Positions 2,404 to 57,612 of a stretch of DNA of 64,000 nt are shown in pieces. The stretch covers positions 124,001 through 188,000 of the forward strand of contig NZ_JAABNR010000004.1 of assembly GCF_009925085.1 (NCBI RefSeq), in the 5' to 3' direction. The notes below the pieces were generated by a model. The model did no database searches, was not told the origin of the DNA, and saw only the letters and a list, made by a program, of their open reading frames with translations. The translations under genes were made by a program, and so were the position numbers. How positions within the stretch are numbered: the stretch's first letter is position 1; every line of letters begins with the position of its first letter. This DNA comes from Stagnihabitans tardus (GTDB lineage: Bacteria; Pseudomonadota; Alphaproteobacteria; Rhodobacterales; Rhodobacteraceae).

Positions 2404-4224
2404 TTACTCCATCGCCTCCAGCTCGTCGATGAAGCCCGCGATCATCGACAGGCCCCGGTCCCAGAACTTCGGGTCCGACAGGTCCAGGCCAAAGGGCGCC
2501 AGAAGCTCCTTGTGGTGCTTGGATCCCCCCGCCTTCAGCATCTCGAAATACTTGTCCTCGAAGCCCGGCATGCCTTCCGCATAGGTCGCGTAAAGCGCAT
2601 TCACCAGGCCGTCGCCGAAAGCATAGGCATAGACATAGAAGGGCGAGTGGATGAAATGCGGGATATAGCACCAGAAGGTCTCATAGCCCGGCTGGAAGTC
2701 GAAGACCGGCCCCAGGCTTTGCGCCTGCACCGACATCCAGAGCGCGTTGATATCCTCGGGCGTCAGCTCCCCCTCGGCGCGGGCGGCGTGCAGCTTGCAC
2801 TCGAAGTCATAGAAGGCGATCTGGCGCACGACCGTGTTGATCATGTCCTCGACCTTGCCGGCGAGGAGCGTCTTGCGCTCCTCCTTGGTCTTGGCGCCGT
2901 CCAGAAGGCGACGGAAGGTCAGCATCTCGCCGAAGACCGATGCCGTCTCAGCCAGGGTCAAAGGCGTCGAGGAGAGCATCTCCCCCTGGCCCGCCGCCAG
3001 GACCTGGTGGACGCCGTGGCCCAGCTCATGCGCGAGCGTCATCACGTCGCGCGGTTTGCCGAGGTAGTTCAGCATGACATAAGGGTGCACGGTCGTCACG
3101 GTCGGGTGCGCAAAGGCGCCCGGAGCCTTGCCGGGCTTCACGCCTGCATCGATCCAGCCCTTGTCATAGAAGGGCTGGGCGATCTCGGCCATGCGCGGGT
3201 CAAAGGCGCGGTAGGCGCCCTGCACGGTCTCCACCGCCTCGTCCCAGGGCACGAGGCGCGGGTTCTCCTGCGGCAAAGGCGCGTTGCGGTCCCAGGTCTG
3301 GAGCTTTTCCAGGCCCAGCCACTTGGCCTTCAGCTTGTAATAGCGGTGCGAGAGCTTGGGATAGGCCGCGACGACGGCATTGCGGAGCGCCTCGACCACC
3401 TCGGGCTCGACATGGTTGGACAGGTGGCGCCCATGCTGCGGCGAGGGCATCTTGCGCCAGCGGTCGTGGATTTCCTTCTCTTTCGCCAGGGTATTGGTGA
3501 TCCGGGCAAAGAGCTTGATATTGGCCTGGAAGACCTCCGCCAAAGCCGCAGCCCCCGCCGCCCTGCGCCCCCGGTCGGGGTCGGTCAAAAGGTTCAGCGT
3601 CGCCTCCAGCGGCATCGCCTCGCCATCCACGGTGAACATCAGCCCCGCCATGGTCTCGTCGAAAAGCTTGTTCCAGGCGGAGGAGCCCACGACCCCCTGG
3701 TCATGCAGGAACTGCTCCAATTCCGCCGAAAGCTGGTGCGGACGCATCGCGCGCATGCGGTCGAAGACCGGCTTGTAGCGCGCCAGAGCCGGGCTGGAGG
3801 CCAAAAGCCCCTCCAGGTGCGCATCCTCCAGCGTGTTGAACTCAAGCGAGAAAAACACCAGATGGGCGGTGAAATCGGTGATCTGGCCCTCGCAATCGGC
3901 CATGAACTTGGCGCGCTCGCCGTCCAGCGTGTTCTGGTAATAGCGCAGGCCCGCATAGGACATCACCCGCCCCGCCGTGGTCTCGATCCGCTCATAGGCC
4001 TGGACGCAATCGAGCATCTGATCAGCCGAAAGCCCCGCCAGCTTCCCCTGGTAGGCCTCGGCAAAGCCCGCGCAGCTCTGCTTCAGCCAGGAGATATCCC
4101 GCCCCAGTTCAGGCGCATCGGGAGCGGTGTAGAGGTCCGACAGGTTCCAGGAGGGCAGGTCGCCGAAAGCGGCGCTCCCGGCGTTGACGTCGTAAACCGG
4201 GCGGGGCAGGGGGAAAGGCAGCAT
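2404..4224 (-). CDS. pepF: Oligoendopeptidase F (M3 family zinc metallopeptidase)
   Basis: The protein is 606 residues, the usual length for PepF/M3B oligopeptidases. The thermolysin-type zinc motif HELGH lies at about residues 399-403, preceded by the conserved 'YVMLNYLGKPRDVMTLAHE' stretch and followed by an EM-type glutamate region around 'LAETASVFGEML'. The enzyme cleaves short peptides (roughly 6-20 residues) in the cytoplasm. The frame is open to 4251, but a GAGGT site is spaced correctly only for the ATG at 4224. It lies 69 bp after the ligase-like gene on the same strand, where a DEXH helicase gene would stand in a complete ligase cassette. Confidence 0.93.
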   Translation of the reverse strand: MLPFPLPRPVYDVNAGSAAFGDLPSWNLSDLYTAPDAPELGRDISWLKQSCAGFAEAYQGKLAGLSADQMLDCVQAYERIETTAGRVMSYAGLRYYQNTLDGERAKFMADCEGQITDFTAHLVFFSLEFNTLEDAHLEGLLASSPALARYKPVFDRMRAMRPHQLSAELEQFLHDQGVVGSSAWNKLFDETMAGLMFTVDGEAMPLEATLNLLTDPDRGRRAAGAAALAEVFQANIKLFARITNTLAKEKEIHDRWRKMPSPQHGRHLSNHVEPEVVEALRNAVVAAYPKLSHRYYKLKAKWLGLEKLQTWDRNAPLPQENPRLVPWDEAVETVQGAYRAFDPRMAEIAQPFYDKGWIDAGVKPGKAPGAFAHPTVTTVHPYVMLNYLGKPRDVMTLAHELGHGVHQVLAAGQGEMLSSTPLTLAETASVFGEMLTFRRLLDGAKTKEERKTLLAGKVEDMINTVVRQIAFYDFECKLHAARAEGELTPEDINALWMSVQAQSLGPVFDFQPGYETFWCYIPHFIHSPFYVYAYAFGDGLVNALYATYAEGMPGFEDKYFEMLKAGGSKHHKELLAPFGLDLSDPKFWDRGLSMIAGFIDELEAME

Positions 4225-4293
4225 GGGAACCTCGGAGGACTGTTTTCCCATAGATAGGCGGGCGCAGGCGAAAAGGGAACCGCCCCGAGGCGA

Positions 4294-4995
4294 TCACCCT
4301 TCCGCGATCTGGTCGACCGAGGCGCCGCGCTCCCAATCCACGACCCGCGCGCCCACCAGGTCAAAGCCCAGTTTGCGCCGCTTGTTCACCACCTTGGCCT
4401 CCCAAGCGATGCGAAAGACCTGCTCGGCCCGGACCGAGCGCAGGGGGCCAAAGCGCTCCAGCACCGCGCCGCGCGCCCAGGCCAGGACCTCGGCGCCATG
4501 GGGGCCGAGTGGCAGCTTGACCAAAGGCACGAGCCCATTGCCCCGCCGGACCGCAAACTGCCCCTGCGCCCCCTCGACCATGGTCAGGACGGCGAGGCAT
4601 TCCCCCGGGCCCCCCGCCTCCTCCACCACCACCGACCGCCGGGCGCCCGAGATCAGCCGGAAGAACCAGGCTCGCTCCACCGGCTCCATCCGCCGGGCGA
4701 GCGCAAAGACCCCCTCCGAGCGCACGGCCAGCACCTCCTCCAGCCCGACCGGGTCCCCCTCTGCCCGCCCCATCAGCAGCGCCGCAGCCTCCGCCCGGTC
4801 GCCGCAAGCCGCCAGACAAGCCGCCGCCACCCCTTCCGGCAGCCCTTCCGAGGCCCTTGCCCAGATCTCGCCCATCCCCATGACCCTGCGCCCCGCCAAG
4901 ACCGCAGCAGCCTGCTCCGGCATGGCAAAACCATGGGCCGCAAACCGCGCCCCGGTCGCCGCCCCGCCTTCCAGAAACGCCGCCAGCTCCTCCAT
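4294..4995 (-). CDS. ATP-dependent DNA ligase-like protein lacking the adenylation domain
   Basis: The protein is 233 residues. Residues about 103-121 ('MEPVERAWFFRLISGARRS') resemble the end of the N-terminal DNA-binding domain of ligase-associated ATP-dependent ligases. The last ~85 residues ('LVPLVKLPLG', 'VLERFGPLRSV', 'VFRIAWEA') resemble the end of their OB-fold domain. The nucleotidyltransferase domain between them is missing: there is no KxDG adenylation motif, and the two parts are joined near residues 122-140. Family ligases are roughly 500-530 residues. The next gene upstream is the ligase-associated exonuclease, which supports the assignment. The frame is intact and bias looks normal. 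The ATG at 4995 is preferred because the ATG at 5017-5019 lies inside a repeat motif. The similarity was judged by eye and function is unknown. Confidence 0.6.
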   Translation of the reverse strand: MEELAAFLEGGAATGARFAAHGFAMPEQAAAVLAGRRVMGMGEIWARASEGLPEGVAAACLAACGDRAEAAALLMGRAEGDPVGLEEVLAVRSEGVFALARRMEPVERAWFFRLISGARRSVVVEEAGGPGECLAVLTMVEGAQGQFAVRRGNGLVPLVKLPLGPHGAEVLAWARGAVLERFGPLRSVRAEQVFRIAWEAKVVNKRRKLGFDLVGARVVDWERGASVDQIAEG

Positions 4996-5002
4996 CACCC
5001 GT

Positions 5003-5090
5003 CTTTCACATTGATCCAAATATCCCCGGGGAGGTCTGGAGGGGCAGGAAGCCCCTCCAGCCAGGGGGTTCGGGGGGCGGGAGCCCCCCG
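5003..5090 (-). repeat. Hairpin plus ATATTTGG-motif element
   Basis: Read on the minus strand: a GC hairpin (GCCCCTCCAG arms at 5036-5045 and 5051-5060), a second G/C hairpin at 5071-5090 nearest the exonuclease stop codon, then GGATATTTGGATCAATGTGAAAG ending at 5003. It fills the gap between the exonuclease and ligase-like genes, so it may end or protect the exonuclease mRNA. The minus-strand motif is described here only in part; its core is ATATTTGG. Confidence 0.75.
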
Positions 5091-5091
5091 A

Positions 5092-6027
5092 TTACCACGC
5101 CTCGGCCTCATAACCCCGCCCCCGCAGCCACAGGGCAAACGCCTCGCGATAGCCATGCAGGCAAATCACCCGCCCCGCCCCGGTCGCCTCCACGGCGGCG
5201 TTCAGCCCAGGGAAATCCGCGTGATCCGAGAGGACGAAGGCCCGGTCCACCCCCTTCCGCCGCGCCGCCAAAGCCATCCAGCCCGAGGCCGCCGCCACCC
5301 GGTGCAGCCCCAGCGAAAGCGCCCAGTCCGAAGCCATGCCCTGCGGCGTCGCGATGACCAGCGCCCCCGGGGAGACCTCCCCCGTCGCAGGCAGGGCATA
5401 GCCCGCCGCCCGCAGGACCTCCGTCACAGCCTCGACCGTCGGATGACAGGCCAGAGGCCCCGGCAGGTCCAACCCCGCCAGCCCCGCCAGGATCCTTTGC
5501 GCCTTGCCGAAGGAATAGGCCAGGACCACCGAGGTCACGCCCTCGGCCGCATTGCCCGCCCACCAGTCGCGCATCGCGGTCAAGACCTCGGCCTCGGGCG
5601 CCCAGGTGAAGATCGGCAGGCCGAAGGTCGTCTCGGTGAGGAATGTGTCGCAGGGGACGGGCTCGAAAGCCTCGCAGAGCGCGTCGCCTTCGACCTTGTA
5701 GTCGCCGGCCGCGACCCAGACCTCTCCCCCCCGTTCGACCCGGATCTGGGCCGAGCCCGGCACATGGCCGGCCGGATGGAAGCTGACCGTGACCGCGCCG
5801 ATCTGGCGCCGCTCCCCGTAAGCCATGGCTTCGGCCGTGATCTTTCCCAGGCGGTGACGGATTACCGGCAGGGTGCCCGTGGTGCAAAGGTAAGCGCCCA
5901 TCCCCCGCGCCGCATGGTCGGAATGGCCATGGGTGACCAGGGCGCGGGGCACGGCGCGCATCGGGTCAATCCAGAAATCCCCGGCGGGGCAATAAAGCCC
6001 CTCCGGTCGCCGTTCGATCAGGTCCAT
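5092..6027 (-). CDS. Ligase-associated DNA damage response exonuclease (metallo-beta-lactamase/beta-CASP fold)
   Basis: The protein is 311 residues. The metal-binding HxHxDH motif is 'HGHSDHA' at residues 33-39, followed by a second histidine region 'FHPAGHVPGSAQI' and the aspartate in 'AAGDYKVEG'. A beta-CASP half includes 'VVLAYSFGKAQRIL' and the late 'VLSDHADFPGL'. This matches the mRNA 3'-end-processing-like exonucleases encoded beside ATP-dependent DNA ligases in a bacterial repair cassette (exonuclease, ligase, DEXH helicase, phosphoesterase). Here only the exonuclease looks complete: the following ligase is shortened, and helicase and phosphoesterase genes do not follow. Confidence 0.88.
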   Translation of the reverse strand: MDLIERRPEGLYCPAGDFWIDPMRAVPRALVTHGHSDHAARGMGAYLCTTGTLPVIRHRLGKITAEAMAYGERRQIGAVTVSFHPAGHVPGSAQIRVERGGEVWVAAGDYKVEGDALCEAFEPVPCDTFLTETTFGLPIFTWAPEAEVLTAMRDWWAGNAAEGVTSVVLAYSFGKAQRILAGLAGLDLPGPLACHPTVEAVTEVLRAAGYALPATGEVSPGALVIATPQGMASDWALSLGLHRVAAASGWMALAARRKGVDRAFVLSDHADFPGLNAAVEATGAGRVICLHGYREAFALWLRGRGYEAEAW

Positions 6028-6057: not shown

Positions 6058-6203
6058 GGGTAGGGTGCGTGCTGGCAGGCAGCACGGGCGAGACCCGGGG
6101 TATACCCCGGGCTACGCAGTTCCACCGGAGCCCCCGGGCTTTGGCGGGCGCTTGGGCGGAAAGCTGCGCCTCCGGCGGGGATATTTGGGTCAATGTGAAA
6201 GGG
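6058..6203 (+). repeat. Composite intergenic repeat, unit 1
   Basis: First unit of the tandem duplication. It carries a degenerate GGTGCGTGC repeat (from 6064), the palindrome at 6094-6111 with CTACGC, and the ATATTTGGGTCAATGTGAAAG motif ending near 6201. Unit 2 follows at a 165-bp offset with the same order and spacing. Confidence 0.8.
6094..6117 (+). repeat. Interspersed GTATAC palindrome, copy 3
   Basis: CCCGGGGTATACCCCGGG at 6094-6111 followed by CTACGC, inside composite unit 1. Confidence 0.85.
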
Positions 6204-6222: not shown

Positions 6223-6368
6223 GGGGTAGGGTGCGTGCTGGCACGCACCGGGGGGGAGCCCCGGGGTATACCCCGGGCTACGCAGACCCAATGAAGCCCC
6301 CGGACTTTGGCGGGAGCTTGGGCGGAAAGCTGCGCCTCCGGCGGGGATATTTGGGCCAAGTTGAAAGC
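6223..6368 (+). repeat. Composite intergenic repeat, unit 2
   Basis: Second unit. It carries a perfect 9-bp inverted repeat GGTGCGTGC/GCACGCACC (6230-6249), the palindrome at 6260-6277 with CTACGC, and the ATATTTGGGCCAAGTTGAAAG motif at about 6347-6367. Confidence 0.8.
6260..6283 (+). repeat. Interspersed GTATAC palindrome, copy 4
   Basis: CCCGGGGTATACCCCGGG at 6260-6277 followed by CTACGC, inside composite unit 2. Confidence 0.85.
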
Positions 6369-6488: not shown

Positions 6489-7898
6489 ATGCCCCAGTTC
6501 AACGAGATGTATCAGGGCGACCAGACCCGCCCGCCCTATGCCGGGCTCGAGGCCTGGATGAAGGCCATGCCGGCCGATCTGCGCATCCAGAAACAGGCCG
6601 AGGCCGAGGCTTTGTTCCGCCGCATCGGCATCACCTTCGCGGTCTATGGCGAGGGGGGCGATCCGGACCGGCTGATCCCCTTCGACATGTTCCCGCGCGT
6701 CTTCACCCATTCGGAATGGGCCAAGCTCGATCGTGGGATCAAGCAGCGCGCCCGCGCCTTGAACGCCTTCCTGACCGATGTTTACGGGCGCGGAGAGATC
6801 ATCCGGGCGGGCCGGATCCCCGCGAACCTCGTCTATCAAAATGAGGCCTATGAGCGCGCGGTGGCGGGCTTCGTGCCGCCGAAAGGGGTTTATTCCCATA
6901 TCGTTGGCATCGATATCGTCCGCACCGGCCCCACGGATTTCTTCGTGCTGGAGGACAATTGCCGCACGCCTTCCGGCGTGTCCTACATGCTCGAATCCCG
7001 CGAGATGATGATGCGGATGTTCCCCGACCTGTTCCGCGAAAACCGCATCGAACCGGTGGACCGCTATCATGAAGCGCTGCGGCGGACGCTCATGTCGGTG
7101 GCGCCCGCGAAATGCCAGGGCGAGCCCACGGTGGTGATCCTGACGCCGGGGCATTTCAACTCGGCTTACTATGAACACTCTTTCCTCGCTGACCTCATGG
7201 GGGTGGAGCTGGTCGAGGGCGCCGACCTCTTTGTCGATGGCGAATTCGTCTATATGCGCACGACCGAGGGCCCGAAGCGGGTGGATGTGATCTATCGGCG
7301 CATCGACGATGCCTTCCTGGACCCCCTCTGCTTCCGCCCCGATTCCATGCTGGGCGTGCCGGGCTTGATGGATGTCTACCGCTCGGGCGGGGTGTCGATC
7401 TGCTCGGCGCCGGGGGCGGGCGTGGCCGATGACAAGGCGGTCTATACCTATGTCCCCGAGATGATCCGCTTCTACTTGGGCGAAGAGCCCATCCTGCAAA
7501 ATGTCCCCACCTGGAAATGCGCGGGCGAGGAGGATCTGAAATACGTCCTCGACAAGCTGCCGGAGCTGGTGGTGAAAGAGGTCCATGGCTCGGGCGGCTA
7601 TGGGATGCTGGTGGGGCCGAAGTCTTCGAAGGAAGAGATCGAGACCTTCCGCCACAAGATCCTGAAGGACCCGTCGAACTATATCGCCCAGCCGACGCTG
7701 TCGCTGTCCACGACGCCGACCTTTGTCGAGGAAGGCGTCGCGCCCCGCCATGTCGACCTGCGGCCCTATTGCCTGGTGGGCGAGCGGATCGAGCTGGTCC
7801 CCGGGGGGCTGACGCGGGTGGCTTTGCGGGAGGGCTCGCTGGTCGTCAACTCCTCGCAGGGTGGCGGCGTCAAGGACACCTGGGTTTTGGCGGAGTAA
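6489..7898 (+). CDS. Circularly permuted ATP-grasp protein (DUF404/DUF407) of the Anbu operon
   Basis: The protein is 469 residues. It shows the DUF404/407 pattern: an N-terminal region 'FNEMYQGDQTRPPYAGLEAWM', then 'VLEDNCRTPSGVSYMLE', 'VVILTPGHFNSAYYEH', 'DVIYRRIDDAFLDPL' and 'VVKEVHGSGGYGMLVGP', which are ATP- and metal-binding segments in the permuted order. Such proteins are predicted peptide or amide ligases. It is the first gene of a four-gene run (ATP-grasp, alpha-E, transglutaminase, Anbu) that is conserved as a unit in many bacteria. The ATG at 6489 follows GGGAGGCC, and the frame is open upstream only across repeat sequence. The real substrate is not known from sequence. Confidence 0.9.
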   Translation: MPQFNEMYQGDQTRPPYAGLEAWMKAMPADLRIQKQAEAEALFRRIGITFAVYGEGGDPDRLIPFDMFPRVFTHSEWAKLDRGIKQRARALNAFLTDVYGRGEIIRAGRIPANLVYQNEAYERAVAGFVPPKGVYSHIVGIDIVRTGPTDFFVLEDNCRTPSGVSYMLESREMMMRMFPDLFRENRIEPVDRYHEALRRTLMSVAPAKCQGEPTVVILTPGHFNSAYYEHSFLADLMGVELVEGADLFVDGEFVYMRTTEGPKRVDVIYRRIDDAFLDPLCFRPDSMLGVPGLMDVYRSGGVSICSAPGAGVADDKAVYTYVPEMIRFYLGEEPILQNVPTWKCAGEEDLKYVLDKLPELVVKEVHGSGGYGMLVGPKSSKEEIETFRHKILKDPSNYIAQPTLSLSTTPTFVEEGVAPRHVDLRPYCLVGERIELVPGGLTRVALREGSLVVNSSQGGGVKDTWVLAE

Positions 7899-7901
7899 GT
7901 C

Positions 7902-8849
7902 ATGCTTTCAAGAACCGCCGACAACCTTTACTGGATCGCCCGCTATATGGAGCGCGCCGAGACCCTGGCCCGCCTCTTGGAAGTGGGCGCGCGGATGTCT
8001 CTGCTGCCGACCGCGCAAGGCTTCCGCAACGAATGGGAATCGATCCTGAATGCCACGGGGCAAATCGGGGCCTTCCAGAAGAAATACGACAGCTTTGCCC
8101 AGCGGAATATCGAGAGCTTCCTCTTCTTCGACCGCGACAATCCCTCCTCCATCGCCTCCTGCATCACGGCGGCGCGCGAGAATGGGCGCATCGTGCGGAC
8201 AGCGCTGACGGGGCAGGTCTGGGATGCGCTCAACACCGCCTTCCAGGAGCTGCGGCAAATCGAGCGCACCCCGCGCAGCCAGCTGGAGCTTTCCCGGCTC
8301 ACCGATTGGACGACCAAGCATACGGCCATGCTGCGGGGCGCCATCGATGCGACGCTTCTGCGCAACGACGGCTATGACTTCCTGAACCTCGGCTTCGCCT
8401 TGGAGCGGGCCGATGCCACGGCGCGGATCATCGACGTGAAGTATTACGTCCTTCTGCCGCGCGCGGGTGTCATCGGCGCGGGGGCCGAGAATGACCAATG
8501 GTCCATGCTCCTGCGCGCCCTGAACCTCAACCGCGCCTTCCACTGGGCCTATGGCGGCGAGCTCACCGCCCAGAAGATCGCCCATTTCCTGATCCTGAAC
8601 CCGGCTTGCCCGCGTGCCCTGATGACTTGCGGGCAGGAAATCGACACGGCGCTGACCCATCTGGCCAAGCTCTACGGCCGCGAGACCGAGGCCCAGCACC
8701 TGGCCCAGGGTCTCTTGCAGGGGCTCAACGCCTCCAGCCCCGAAGCGATCTTCGACGAGGGGCTGCATGACTTCCTCACCCGCTTCATCCGCGAGATCGC
8801 GGCCCTGGCCGGGGCCGTGCATGACAGCTATCTTTCGGGGGACATGTGA
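7902..8849 (+). CDS. Alpha-E domain protein (DUF403)
   Basis: The protein is 315 residues and almost wholly helical. It opens with the family signature 'MLSRTADNLYWIARYMERAE' and has further conserved pieces 'LGFALERADATARIIDVKYY' and 'NPACPRALMTC'. The gene begins 3 bp after the ATP-grasp gene and ends overlapping the transglutaminase start by 1 bp (TGATG), so the three are probably translated together. Alpha-E proteins are regular partners of DUF404/407 ATP-grasp proteins and transglutaminases; their biochemical role is not established. Confidence 0.9.
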   Translation: MLSRTADNLYWIARYMERAETLARLLEVGARMSLLPTAQGFRNEWESILNATGQIGAFQKKYDSFAQRNIESFLFFDRDNPSSIASCITAARENGRIVRTALTGQVWDALNTAFQELRQIERTPRSQLELSRLTDWTTKHTAMLRGAIDATLLRNDGYDFLNLGFALERADATARIIDVKYYVLLPRAGVIGAGAENDQWSMLLRALNLNRAFHWAYGGELTAQKIAHFLILNPACPRALMTCGQEIDTALTHLAKLYGRETEAQHLAQGLLQGLNASSPEAIFDEGLHDFLTRFIREIAALAGAVHDSYLSGDM

Positions 8850-9658
8850 TGCTTCTCCTCATCGACCACCTGACCCGTTACCGCTATGACGCGCCGGTGC
8901 GCGGCGTGGTGCAAAGCCACCGCCTGACGCCGTCGCTGCACGAGGGGCAGCAGGTCATCGACTGGCAGGTCACCGTGACCGGGGGCATCGCGGGGGGCTC
9001 GTTCCGAGACGGGGCGGGGGATGTGGTGCAGGGCTGGTCGGTCAAGGGGCCGGTCAGCGAGATCGAGGTCCGGGTGCGCGGCAAGGTCGCCACGACCGAC
9101 ACGGCCGGCGTGTTGCGCGGCCACCGCGAAAGCGTGGCGGTCGAGGCCTATCTGCGCGACACGTCCCTGACCGAGGCCAGCGGGGGACTTGGCACCCTGG
9201 CCCGGGTGGTGGAGGGCGAGGAGAACCGCCTCGCCGCCTGTCACGCGCTCTCGCGTGCGGTGTCGGAGGCGGTGACCTATGTGCCGGGGGCGACGGCCTC
9301 TCATACGACCGCCGCCGAGGCCCTTGAGGCGGGCGAGGGCGTGTGCCAGGACCATGCCCATATCCTTTGCGCCGTGGCCCGGGCCAATATGATCCCGGCG
9401 CGCTATGTCTCGGGCTATCTTCTGGCCGATGCCGAGGGCAAAGCCCACCAGGCCGCCCATGCCTGGGCGGAGTTGTTCATCCCGGGCCTGGGCTGGGTGG
9501 GCTTCGATCCGGCCAATGAATGCTGCCCCGATGACCGCTATGTCCGCCTGGGCTCTGGCCTCGATGCGCGCGAGGCCGCGCCGATCCGGGGCTCGGCGCG
9601 CTCGACCGGGGCGGAAACGCTGGATGTGACGGTTGCGGTTCTGGCGACGCAGCAATAG
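8849..9658 (+). CDS. Transglutaminase-like cysteine peptidase family protein
   Basis: The protein is 269 residues. An N-terminal beta-domain (about residues 1-100, 'DHLTRYRYDAPVRGVVQSHRL') precedes a transglutaminase core with C166 ('GEGVCQDHAHIL'), H204 ('AHAWAE') and D220 ('VGFDPANE') as the catalytic triad. No signal peptide is visible, so it should act in the cytoplasm. It is the third gene of the Anbu operon, with its ATG sharing one base with the previous stop. By context it may hydrolyse or form the isopeptide or amide bonds made by the ATP-grasp partner; this is inference. Confidence 0.9.
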   Translation: MLLLIDHLTRYRYDAPVRGVVQSHRLTPSLHEGQQVIDWQVTVTGGIAGGSFRDGAGDVVQGWSVKGPVSEIEVRVRGKVATTDTAGVLRGHRESVAVEAYLRDTSLTEASGGLGTLARVVEGEENRLAACHALSRAVSEAVTYVPGATASHTTAAEALEAGEGVCQDHAHILCAVARANMIPARYVSGYLLADAEGKAHQAAHAWAELFIPGLGWVGFDPANECCPDDRYVRLGSGLDAREAAPIRGSARSTGAETLDVTVAVLATQQ

Positions 9659-9696
9659 GGTCCGCCCGAAATGAGAGTGCGGAATCTGGGGGATCG

Positions 9697-10422
9697 ATGA
9701 CCTATTGCGTGGGGCTGCTGCTGAAAGAGGGGCTGGTGATGCTGTCGGACACCCGCACCAATGCGGGGCTGGACAATATCTCGACCTATCGCAAGATGTT
9801 CTTCTTCGAACGCCCCGGCGAGGTGGTCATCACCATCATGACGGCGGGGTCGCTTTCGGTGACGCAAACCGCCATGGCGCGGCTGCAAGAGGCGATCGAT
9901 GCGCCCGATGCCGATGAGACGACCTCGATCCTGAAGGCACCGACTTTGCTGAAGGCGGCCTCGATCATCGGCAATACTCTGGCCGAGACGCGGCTCGAGA
10001 TCGACGAGAAGCTGAATGCGATGAACCAGGGGGCCACGGCTTCGCTGATCGTGGCGGGGCAGAGGAAGGGCGGCCAGATGCGGCTTTTCCTGATCTATCC
10101 CGAGGGGAATTTCATCCAGGCCACCGAGGACACGCCGTTTTTGCAGATCGGCGAGCACAAATATGGCAAGCCGATCCTCGATCGGGTGGTGAAGCCCGGG
10201 ACCTCGCTGGCCGATGCCAAGAAGGCGGTGCTTTTGTCGATGGATTCGACGCTGCGGTCCAATCTTTCGGTGGGGATGCCCTTGGATATGGCGGTGATCG
10301 AAAGGGATGCGCTGCAGGTGACGCAAAGGCGGCGGATCGAGGCGGGGGATCCGCAGTTCCGCGCCATGTCCGAGGCCTGGAGCAAGGCTTTGCGCGACGG
10401 GTTCACGCAGATCGAGATCTGA
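9697..10422 (+). CDS. Anbu peptidase (ancestral proteasome/HslV-like Ntn-hydrolase)
   Basis: The protein is 241 residues and starts 'MTYCVGLLLKEGLVMLSDTRTNAG'. After removal of Met1, Thr2 would be the N-terminal nucleophile, with Asp and Lys partners in the family pattern (D18-T19-R20 and 'YRKMFFF'). The beta-subunit fold and the partners (ATP-grasp, alpha-E, transglutaminase) identify the proteasome-like group called Anbu, members of which assemble into open helical rings. Substrates are unknown. It follows the transglutaminase gene after 38 bp and is followed by a strong hairpin. Confidence 0.9.
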   Translation: MTYCVGLLLKEGLVMLSDTRTNAGLDNISTYRKMFFFERPGEVVITIMTAGSLSVTQTAMARLQEAIDAPDADETTSILKAPTLLKAASIIGNTLAETRLEIDEKLNAMNQGATASLIVAGQRKGGQMRLFLIYPEGNFIQATEDTPFLQIGEHKYGKPILDRVVKPGTSLADAKKAVLLSMDSTLRSNLSVGMPLDMAVIERDALQVTQRRRIEAGDPQFRAMSEAWSKALRDGFTQIEI

Positions 10423-28745: not shown

Positions 28746-28837
28746 CAATCGGGGGGCTGCCGCCCCCCGAGCCCCCCGCCCAAAGGGGAGCACGCTCCCC
28801 TTTGGAAACCCCGTGGATATTTGGGCCAATGTGAAAG
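28746..28837 (+). repeat. Hairpin plus ATATTTGG-motif element
   Basis: Two hairpins (28750-28769 and 28780-28805) are followed by AAACCCCGTGGATATTTGG and on to GTGAAAG. This matches the element after murC nearly base for base in the hairpin part. Confidence 0.8.
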
Positions 28838-29993: not shown

Positions 29994-30079
29994 CGCCTCA
30001 CCATGCCCGCGCCGGGCGCAAAAGAAAACCCCGGGCGCGCGAGGGGCCCGGGGATTGGTGCTCTGCATCCGCTGCGTCG

Positions 30080-30097
30080 CCCGGGGCATACCCCGGG
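30080..30097 (-). repeat. Interspersed palindrome, copy 7 (CATA centre)
   Basis: The same palindrome with TATA changed to CATA, preceded by GCGTCG in place of GCGTAG. It begins 6 bp beyond the stop codon of the corrinoid gene, the same position as copy 2 relative to pepF. Confidence 0.75.
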
Positions 30098-32984: not shown

Positions 32985-33008
32985 CCCGGGGTATACCCCG
33001 GGCTACGC
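32985..33008 (+). repeat. Interspersed GTATAC palindrome, copy 8
   Basis: CCCGGGGTATACCCCGGG at 32985-33002 followed by CTACGC. It lies 38 bp beyond the stop of the homocysteine methyltransferase gene. Confidence 0.85.
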
Positions 33009-36931: not shown

Positions 36932-37298
36932 CGCTTCGGGGCGGGGGGGCCTCGGGCAAGCCCTCGGCCCGCGCGGCGGCCCCGGCCGGAGGGAGCGAGC
37001 CCCCTCCGGACCTCCCCCGGCGCCCGGTTGGCGGCGGAGGCCTGTTTGACGACGGGTGCTGGGGGGGTGCCGCTCTGGTGTCTTGTGGTCCGGGCGCTGA
37101 GCTGCGGCGCGTGATGACCTGACCTCCAAATGTCTTCAGCGCCGGAGCCCGCCCCATGGCGCCGCCCCTGCCCTTTCTCACTGGCCCAAATATCCCCGCC
37201 GGAGGCATGCCCCAAAGCCATGGGCTTTGGGGCCGGAACCGGAGGGCGAAGGCCCGGAGGCGACAGGAAAGGCTTGCGGCGTCAGCCGCTCCATCGGG
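36932..37298. other. Intergenic region between convergent genes with repeat element
   Basis: No gene is supported. A stem CCGGAGGG/CCCTCCGG (36986-37009) follows the dehydrogenase. The ATATTTGG motif in minus orientation lies at 37173-37205, preceded on that strand by CCTCCGGCGGGG. Confidence 0.6.
37173..37205 (-). repeat. ATATTTGG-motif element
   Basis: Minus strand: CCTCCGGCGGGGATATTTGG, then GCCAGTGAGAAAG. It lies about 95 bp beyond the CRTAC1 gene stop. Confidence 0.78.
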
Positions 37299-57574: not shown

Positions 57575-57612
57575 GGGCCTCCGGCGGGAGATATTTGGGC
57601 CAAATTGAAAGA
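57575..57612 (+). repeat. ATATTTGG-motif element between hisB and hisH
   Basis: GGCCTCCGGCGGGAGATATT, then TGGGCCAAATTGAAAG. The motif is read on the plus strand although both flanking genes are on the minus strand, so here it is antisense to the his message. Confidence 0.78.

Follow-up and report, generated by a model that had tools for sequence, protein, structure and literature searches.

A ligase homolog without its catalytic domain

Within the 64,000-nucleotide stretch of Stagnihabitans tardus DNA that we analyzed (the window), a short gene encodes a protein that sequence comparison confirms to be a LigB/TIGR04120-type ATP-dependent DNA ligase homolog without the nucleotidyltransferase (NTase) domain. 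The gene (4294..4995, minus strand) runs from an ATG at 4995 to a stop at 4294, which gives the intact frame of 233 residues that had been described in the original prediction; starting at the TTG at 5019 instead would lengthen the protein by 8 residues. All on the minus strand, an N-terminal ligase DNA-binding domain (DBD; residues 1–122, 4630..4995) is followed by a junction (residues 123–128, 4612..4629) and a C-terminal OB-fold (residues 129–233, 4297..4611). At the junction, ∼253 residues (150–402 of the aligned ligase) are missing, among them KWDGIR (227–232) and WWKWK (396–400).

This architecture emerges most clearly from the family to which the protein belongs. When 13 short proteins were compared with 12 active ligases by profile–profile alignment (hhalign), the match was 99.9% overall, and the two halves alone aligned to ligase residues 20–149 (99.3%) and 403–522 (99.6%), as opposed to 0.2% for a column-shuffled control. 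The direct joining of the DBD to the OB-fold that had been predicted was thus confirmed; the alignment of the DBD to active ligases starts at approximately residue 15 of the short protein. The short family has 28 invariant positions; the 12 active ligases show no variation either at 23 of these and carry the identical residue at 20 (P = 6e-5). TIGR04120 is matched by all 13 aligned short members, and in 10 of the 16 genomes of the genus that were examined both ends of this model (∼21–148 and ∼403–525) match in one open frame, so the architecture is seen directly. The window protein taken by itself is recognized by NCBIfam models at the ligase C terminus only (NF006701, E = 5e-8, residues 155–221; TIGR04120, E = 1e-5, residues 149–220). 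Its N-terminal half alone gives a weak 8.9 bits to the DBD model, and its putative DBD is assigned through its orthologs. Pfam, which had been suggested for identifying both halves, failed to do so: there was no match for the window protein and one weak ligase match among the 13 orthologs (DNA_ligase_A_C, E = 0.21, 1/13). Searching the PDB with the short-family profile returned ATP ligases (9df9, 3rr5, 2cfm, and others) with E values of 0.0002–0.7, and the three alignments examined matched both end domains and nothing between, each domain alone being weak (i-E 0.6–14). The single window sequence gave only a chance esterase match in the PDB, and the AlphaFold model made from the window protein and its ortholog from Rhodobacter sp. 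KR11 was unusable (pLDDT 39.5, pTM 0.28).

The predicted absence of the KxDG lysine and of the NTase motifs extends to the 13 full-length short members, none of which shows a positive NTase score or a KxDG pattern. Relocation of the NTase elsewhere in the genome is ruled out by a search of the window genome (4.59 Mb, 99.76% complete) for PF01068, which gave 0 matches at E ≤ 0.001, the control being positive in 6 of 14 genomes. Residue comparison of the OB-fold shows that RxKxG is kept and that the RFPR motif, presumably ligase motif VI, is not conserved. We predict that the short protein does not seal nicks. Ligase activity might instead be rebuilt in trans, the short protein borrowing the NTase of an ATP ligase from another protein, and keeping the OB-fold and DBD together would suit such a scheme; with no PF01068 domain to borrow in the window genome and no conserved RFPR motif, we regard it as very improbable.

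The short form is found throughout the genus

The short protein is present in 16/16 genus genomes examined, with no internal stops; in 13 of these the reading frame is complete and has the same architecture, among them the genus member recorded as Rhodobacter sp. KR11 (G006). In G009, G011, and G013, the short protein ends at contig ends; these pieces span the junction and were left out of the alignment. Identity to the window protein ranges over 35–80% (own genome excluded) and is 35–44% in most species, with the frame kept. None of the 16 genomes has a ligase above the TIGR04120 cut-off. Recurrence in 13 genomes has already refuted an assembly or annotation artifact, the chance of which we consider negligible, and presence in all 16 genomes rules out a recent deletion in one strain, the outcome against which the original prediction had set itself. 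Outside the genus, no single-piece short form was found among the matches listed for 295 family genomes (294 genera), where only G000 and G002 carry it, and G000 is the only one to carry it among 337 class genomes, at thresholds (E 1e-10 for the family and 1e-15 for the class) that diverged short forms could escape. An open-access literature search found no paper on a DBD–OB ligase without NTase.

The short gene is under purifying selection

The comparison of same-length orthologs that had been proposed could be made within the genus. For the short gene, dN/dS (Nei–Gojobori) was 0.20–0.40 in all 21 pairs examined, which are those with identity of at least 58% among 78 possible pairs. Selection is looser than on the neighboring exonuclease gene, for which dN/dS was 0.08–0.21 in the same 21 pairs. 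Between the window and KR11 short genes there are 147 changes, distributed as 29, 32, and 86 over the three codon positions, and 46 amino acid differences, compared to a mean of 92 for random placement (minimum 76, 2,000 draws). By domain, dN/dS for this pair is 0.31 in the DBD (residues 1–122) and 0.15 in the OB-fold (residues 129–233). The two other sense frames give 2.46 and 1.70, and the antisense frames 1.95, 0.32, and 2.27, the frame at 0.32 having two stops in KR11. These findings support the conclusion that the short gene is under purifying selection and has been retained.

Could this nevertheless be slow decay, with a dead ligase shrinking via in-frame deletion on its way out? Selection looser than on the exonuclease would fit, as would the very long window/KR11 branch (2.94 changes per column in the tree), the stepwise motif loss and weaker DBD and OB-fold scores in other lineages that are described below, and the fact that a stop-free window/KR11 pair is weak evidence alone, 251 of 2,000 random draws being stop-free as well. 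However, 16 genomes show no internal stop (G009, G011, and G013 being partial, with the junction spanned), all 21 pairs have a dN/dS well under 1, the other frames of the window/KR11 pair stand at 1.7–2.5 in four cases out of five (the fifth, antisense, at 0.32), and the frame is still open at 35–44% identity to the window protein in most species. We consider decay improbable.

The short gene occupies the ligase slot beside a β-CASP exonuclease

The ATG of the short gene lies 96 bp downstream of a gene (5092..6027, minus strand) for a 311-residue ligase-associated β-CASP exonuclease (TIGR04122, 377 bits, cut-off 325), which is the neighbor that had been anticipated. The genes on either side are those found in relatives: 2404..4251 (minus strand), whose product we take to be an M3-type peptidase, lies beside the ligase slot, and 6489..7898 (plus strand), presumably encoding an ATP-grasp-type protein, lies beside the exonuclease. 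The exonuclease adjoins the short gene in 15/15 genus genomes where it was found. Five short loci could be viewed with wide flanks; all have the peptidase, the short gene, and the exonuclease in this order, followed in four by the ATP-grasp gene (G012, G005, G006, and G002; not found for G003). The full order of peptidase, ligase, exonuclease, and ATP-grasp gene is seen at one locus of a relative with a longer ligase frame (G287). Loci with active ligases have the exonuclease on the same strand within the flank in 13/13 cases and the peptidase in three (G082, G260, and G299), with flanks mostly of 0.3–1.5 kb. That the short protein is the positional ortholog of the LigB-type ATP-dependent DNA ligase is the best explanation.

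Of the 295 genomes of the family sample, 157 have both the exonuclease and a ligase-like protein, 1 has the ligase-like protein alone, and 4 have the exonuclease alone; the helicase TIGR04121 is present in 161 of those 162 genomes and in 77 without either. This near inseparability, together with the constant adjacency within the genus, speaks against a DNA-binding protein that was kept for a new task apart from the exonuclease, for example in nick shielding or regulation. Such a task would be compatible with the conserved DBD and OB-fold positions and with the missing exonuclease tail in the same genus (see below), and we rate it as unlikely, if worth keeping in mind.

The window genome encodes the helicase and phosphoesterase families away from the short-gene locus, and 15 of the 16 genomes of the genus have a phosphoesterase above its cut-off. 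On contig C5, just upstream of the phosphoesterase, lies a frame of 805 residues in which a helicase-like P-loop was identified by eye.

Some longer ligases of other genera have lost the catalytic lysine

A ligase-like protein was found in 156 family-sample genomes outside the genus, and in 151 of them one copy carries the catalytic lysine (that of G260 with two internal stops). A stop splits the ligase frame of G234 and leaves the motif in the second part, and in G055, G225, G248, and G283 the only ligase frame is intact but has A, Q, R, and R in place of the lysine (Q, A, R, and R in the order of the loci L107, L108, L110, and L112). In G287, a genome listed as 5% contaminated, a lysine-bearing ligase lies on one contig and an open frame with a degenerate NTase on another, in the syntenic place (L221:1828–3267, same gene in L065; ∼479 residues from ATG, 534 stop to stop). 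In all five lysine-less frames (the second copy of G287, G248, G055, G283, and G225), the arginine of motif Ib is gone as well, and motifs III and V are damaged. Compared to ligases classed as active from their motifs, as the dead ones were, they score 21–231 bits for the NTase (active median 392, minimum 257), 70–188 bits for the DBD (active median 232; below the active minimum of 153 in 3/5), and 66–159 bits for the OB-fold (active median 225), the last being below the 5th percentile (191) of 149 active ligases.

A DBD–OB tree with 58 rows groups the 13 short proteins in a single clade (100/99) and has the degenerate ligase of G287 as its sister (98/88); individual placements are uncertain, since several rows have long branches and an odd composition. 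The G287 protein is likely an intermediate toward the short form, and no further species of its genus was found among 61 genomes searched. A single clade for all 18 short and lysine-less proteins was rejected (p-AU 0.0024), and catalysis has therefore probably been lost more than once among these ligases. In the exonuclease tree, a shared origin of G248, G287, and the short clade gave a p-AU of 0.124. As for the neighborhoods of the lysine-less frames, no ATP-grasp match was seen at the G055 locus and no peptidase match at the G248 locus, and no exonuclease match beside the ligase of G283 (18 kb searched) or G225 (∼1.5 kb on each side), two genomes that do encode the exonuclease.

The partner exonuclease has lost its C-terminal tail

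The exonuclease motifs HxHxDH, GH, GDY, and SDHAD are kept in 12 aligned genus members; the relative G260 has SNHAD in place of SDHAD. We observed a loss at the C terminus of the protein, which had not been predicted and accompanies the loss of the NTase in the genus. In relatives, 70/70 exonucleases examined continue past the last conserved segment into a C-terminal tail; they come from a subset of 161 genomes with the exonuclease that includes two with stop-interrupted ligase frames (G234 and G260) and leaves out G055 (where the frame runs on out of register), G283, and G225. The tail is absent in 12/12 genus members examined, in which the protein ends 1–2 residues past the last conserved segment (window 5092–5100); these are 12 of the 15 genus genomes with the exonuclease, the others being G004, G011, and G013. 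Among the first 69 relatives, 46 tails are of the T-x-[FYW] type, usually TE[FY]xGE, and 23 are of other types, mostly GYE[DE]. The end of the exonuclease is net acidic in 68 of these 69, and the one exception, G191, is truncated at the edge of the sequence examined. G248 has a tail of 8 residues that is not acidic, and the syntenic exonuclease copy of G287 has an 11-residue tail without the motif. These patterns suggest that the tail may serve the domain now missing from the ligase, the two losses being apparently correlated, which is not proof, with the short clade counting as one event. Because the tail is lost in the genus, docking via the exonuclease tail is not supported there.

A proposed DNA-binding platform for the exonuclease

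On balance, we think that the short protein probably is a retained, noncatalytic DNA-binding platform for the exonuclease, and we hold this with moderate confidence, both DNA binding and partner contact being inferred. In the ancestor of the genus, the adenylating domain would have been excised from a LigB-type ligase, probably after prior inactivation. The DBD and OB-fold would have been kept to hold on to duplex DNA at nicks, gaps, or ends and so to place the β-CASP exonuclease there, while another ligase, presumably the NAD-dependent one, would do the sealing. Under this proposal, the two domains persist because the lineage still needs noncatalytic gripping and placement of the exonuclease. 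Genus-wide intact frames, purifying selection, synteny, the retained exonuclease, and a sister with a degenerate NTase all support a platform. Selection looser than on the exonuclease, the long window/KR11 branch, the drift of the DBD and OB-fold in the five lysine-less longer frames, the loss of one plausible contact with the exonuclease tail, and the lack of an exonuclease in the examined flanks of the G283 and G225 ligases count against it. Of the two outcomes originally envisaged, decay or a kept noncatalytic adaptor, the evidence of genus-wide intact frames, selection, and adjacency favors retention; the adaptor role stays a proposal, and docking through the tail did not hold up.

One close comparison is with LigB itself, with which the short protein shares the DBD, the OB-fold, the gene position, and the TIGR04122 partner, with the helicase and phosphoesterase families of the LigB set elsewhere in the window genome. 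It differs in having no NTase, in falling below the family cut-off, and in its nonconserved RFPR motif. One account (PMC10140301) places the LigB-type ligase typically in an operon with an Lhr helicase, a phosphoesterase, and an MBL-fold nuclease, mentions exonuclease–LigB fusions, and gives the role and target damage of the bacterial set (LigB, exonuclease, Lhr, and phosphoesterase) as not known. The longer lysine-less LigB homologs are similar to the short protein in that DBD and OB-fold are recognizable and the KxDG lysine is lost, but they retain a degenerate NTase, of which the short protein has nothing.

Another parallel, by analogy, is vertebrate end joining, where, according to two papers, the LigIV DBD binds the β-CASP nuclease Artemis (PMC4037875; PMC9956705) and, in the second, the LigIV DBD and C-terminal region play a large part in V(D)J recombination; two others indicate that Lig4 still has a structural role when it is catalytically inactive (PMC9638927; PMC10858965). 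In both systems a β-CASP nuclease is paired with a ligase or its homolog, and the genus exonuclease has its MBL/β-CASP active-site motifs intact. Unlike the short protein, LigIV keeps its NTase, and the contact of Artemis is in the nuclease C-terminal region, whereas the genus exonuclease has lost its tail (1–2 residues left). None of the precedents found (LigIV–Artemis, inactive Lig4, and LigB fusions) concerns a ligase with a deleted NTase.

A bolder version of the platform, which we offer tentatively and would sooner doubt than believe, is that exonuclease and ligase form one complex in which the conserved, mostly acidic exonuclease tail docks on the NTase while the DBD and OB-fold grip DNA. 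The genus would have shed NTase and tail together, leaving a minimal machine of exonuclease and DNA clamp, a natural separation-of-function mutant. 

For the repair set as a whole, a lineage that gave up only the ligation domain and retained the rest suggests that sealing can be dispensed with, unlike the gripping of DNA next to the exonuclease. One would then expect a LigB without catalytic activity to restore some of the function lost in a ligB deletion. The short protein is also a small target for structural studies together with its exonuclease, and the tail offers a candidate docking motif.

Other features of the window

The gene row at 6489–10422 of the window resembles what we take to be ATP-grasp, alpha-E, transglutaminase-like, and proteasome-type (Anbu-like) proteins. 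Two repeats are present, for each of which 0 matches are expected by chance. The palindromic intergenic repeat CGGGGTATACCCCGGGCTACGC has 8 matches with ≤3 mismatches in 6 places (2305–2326, 2374–2403, 6088–6117, 6262–6283, 30074–30095, and 32987–33008). The repeat GGGGATATTTGGNNCAANNTGAAAG has 6 matches with ≤2 mismatches (5003–5027, 6177–6201, 6343–6367, 28813–28837, 37173–37197, and 57587–57611), one of which ends 7 bp upstream of the ATG of the short gene.
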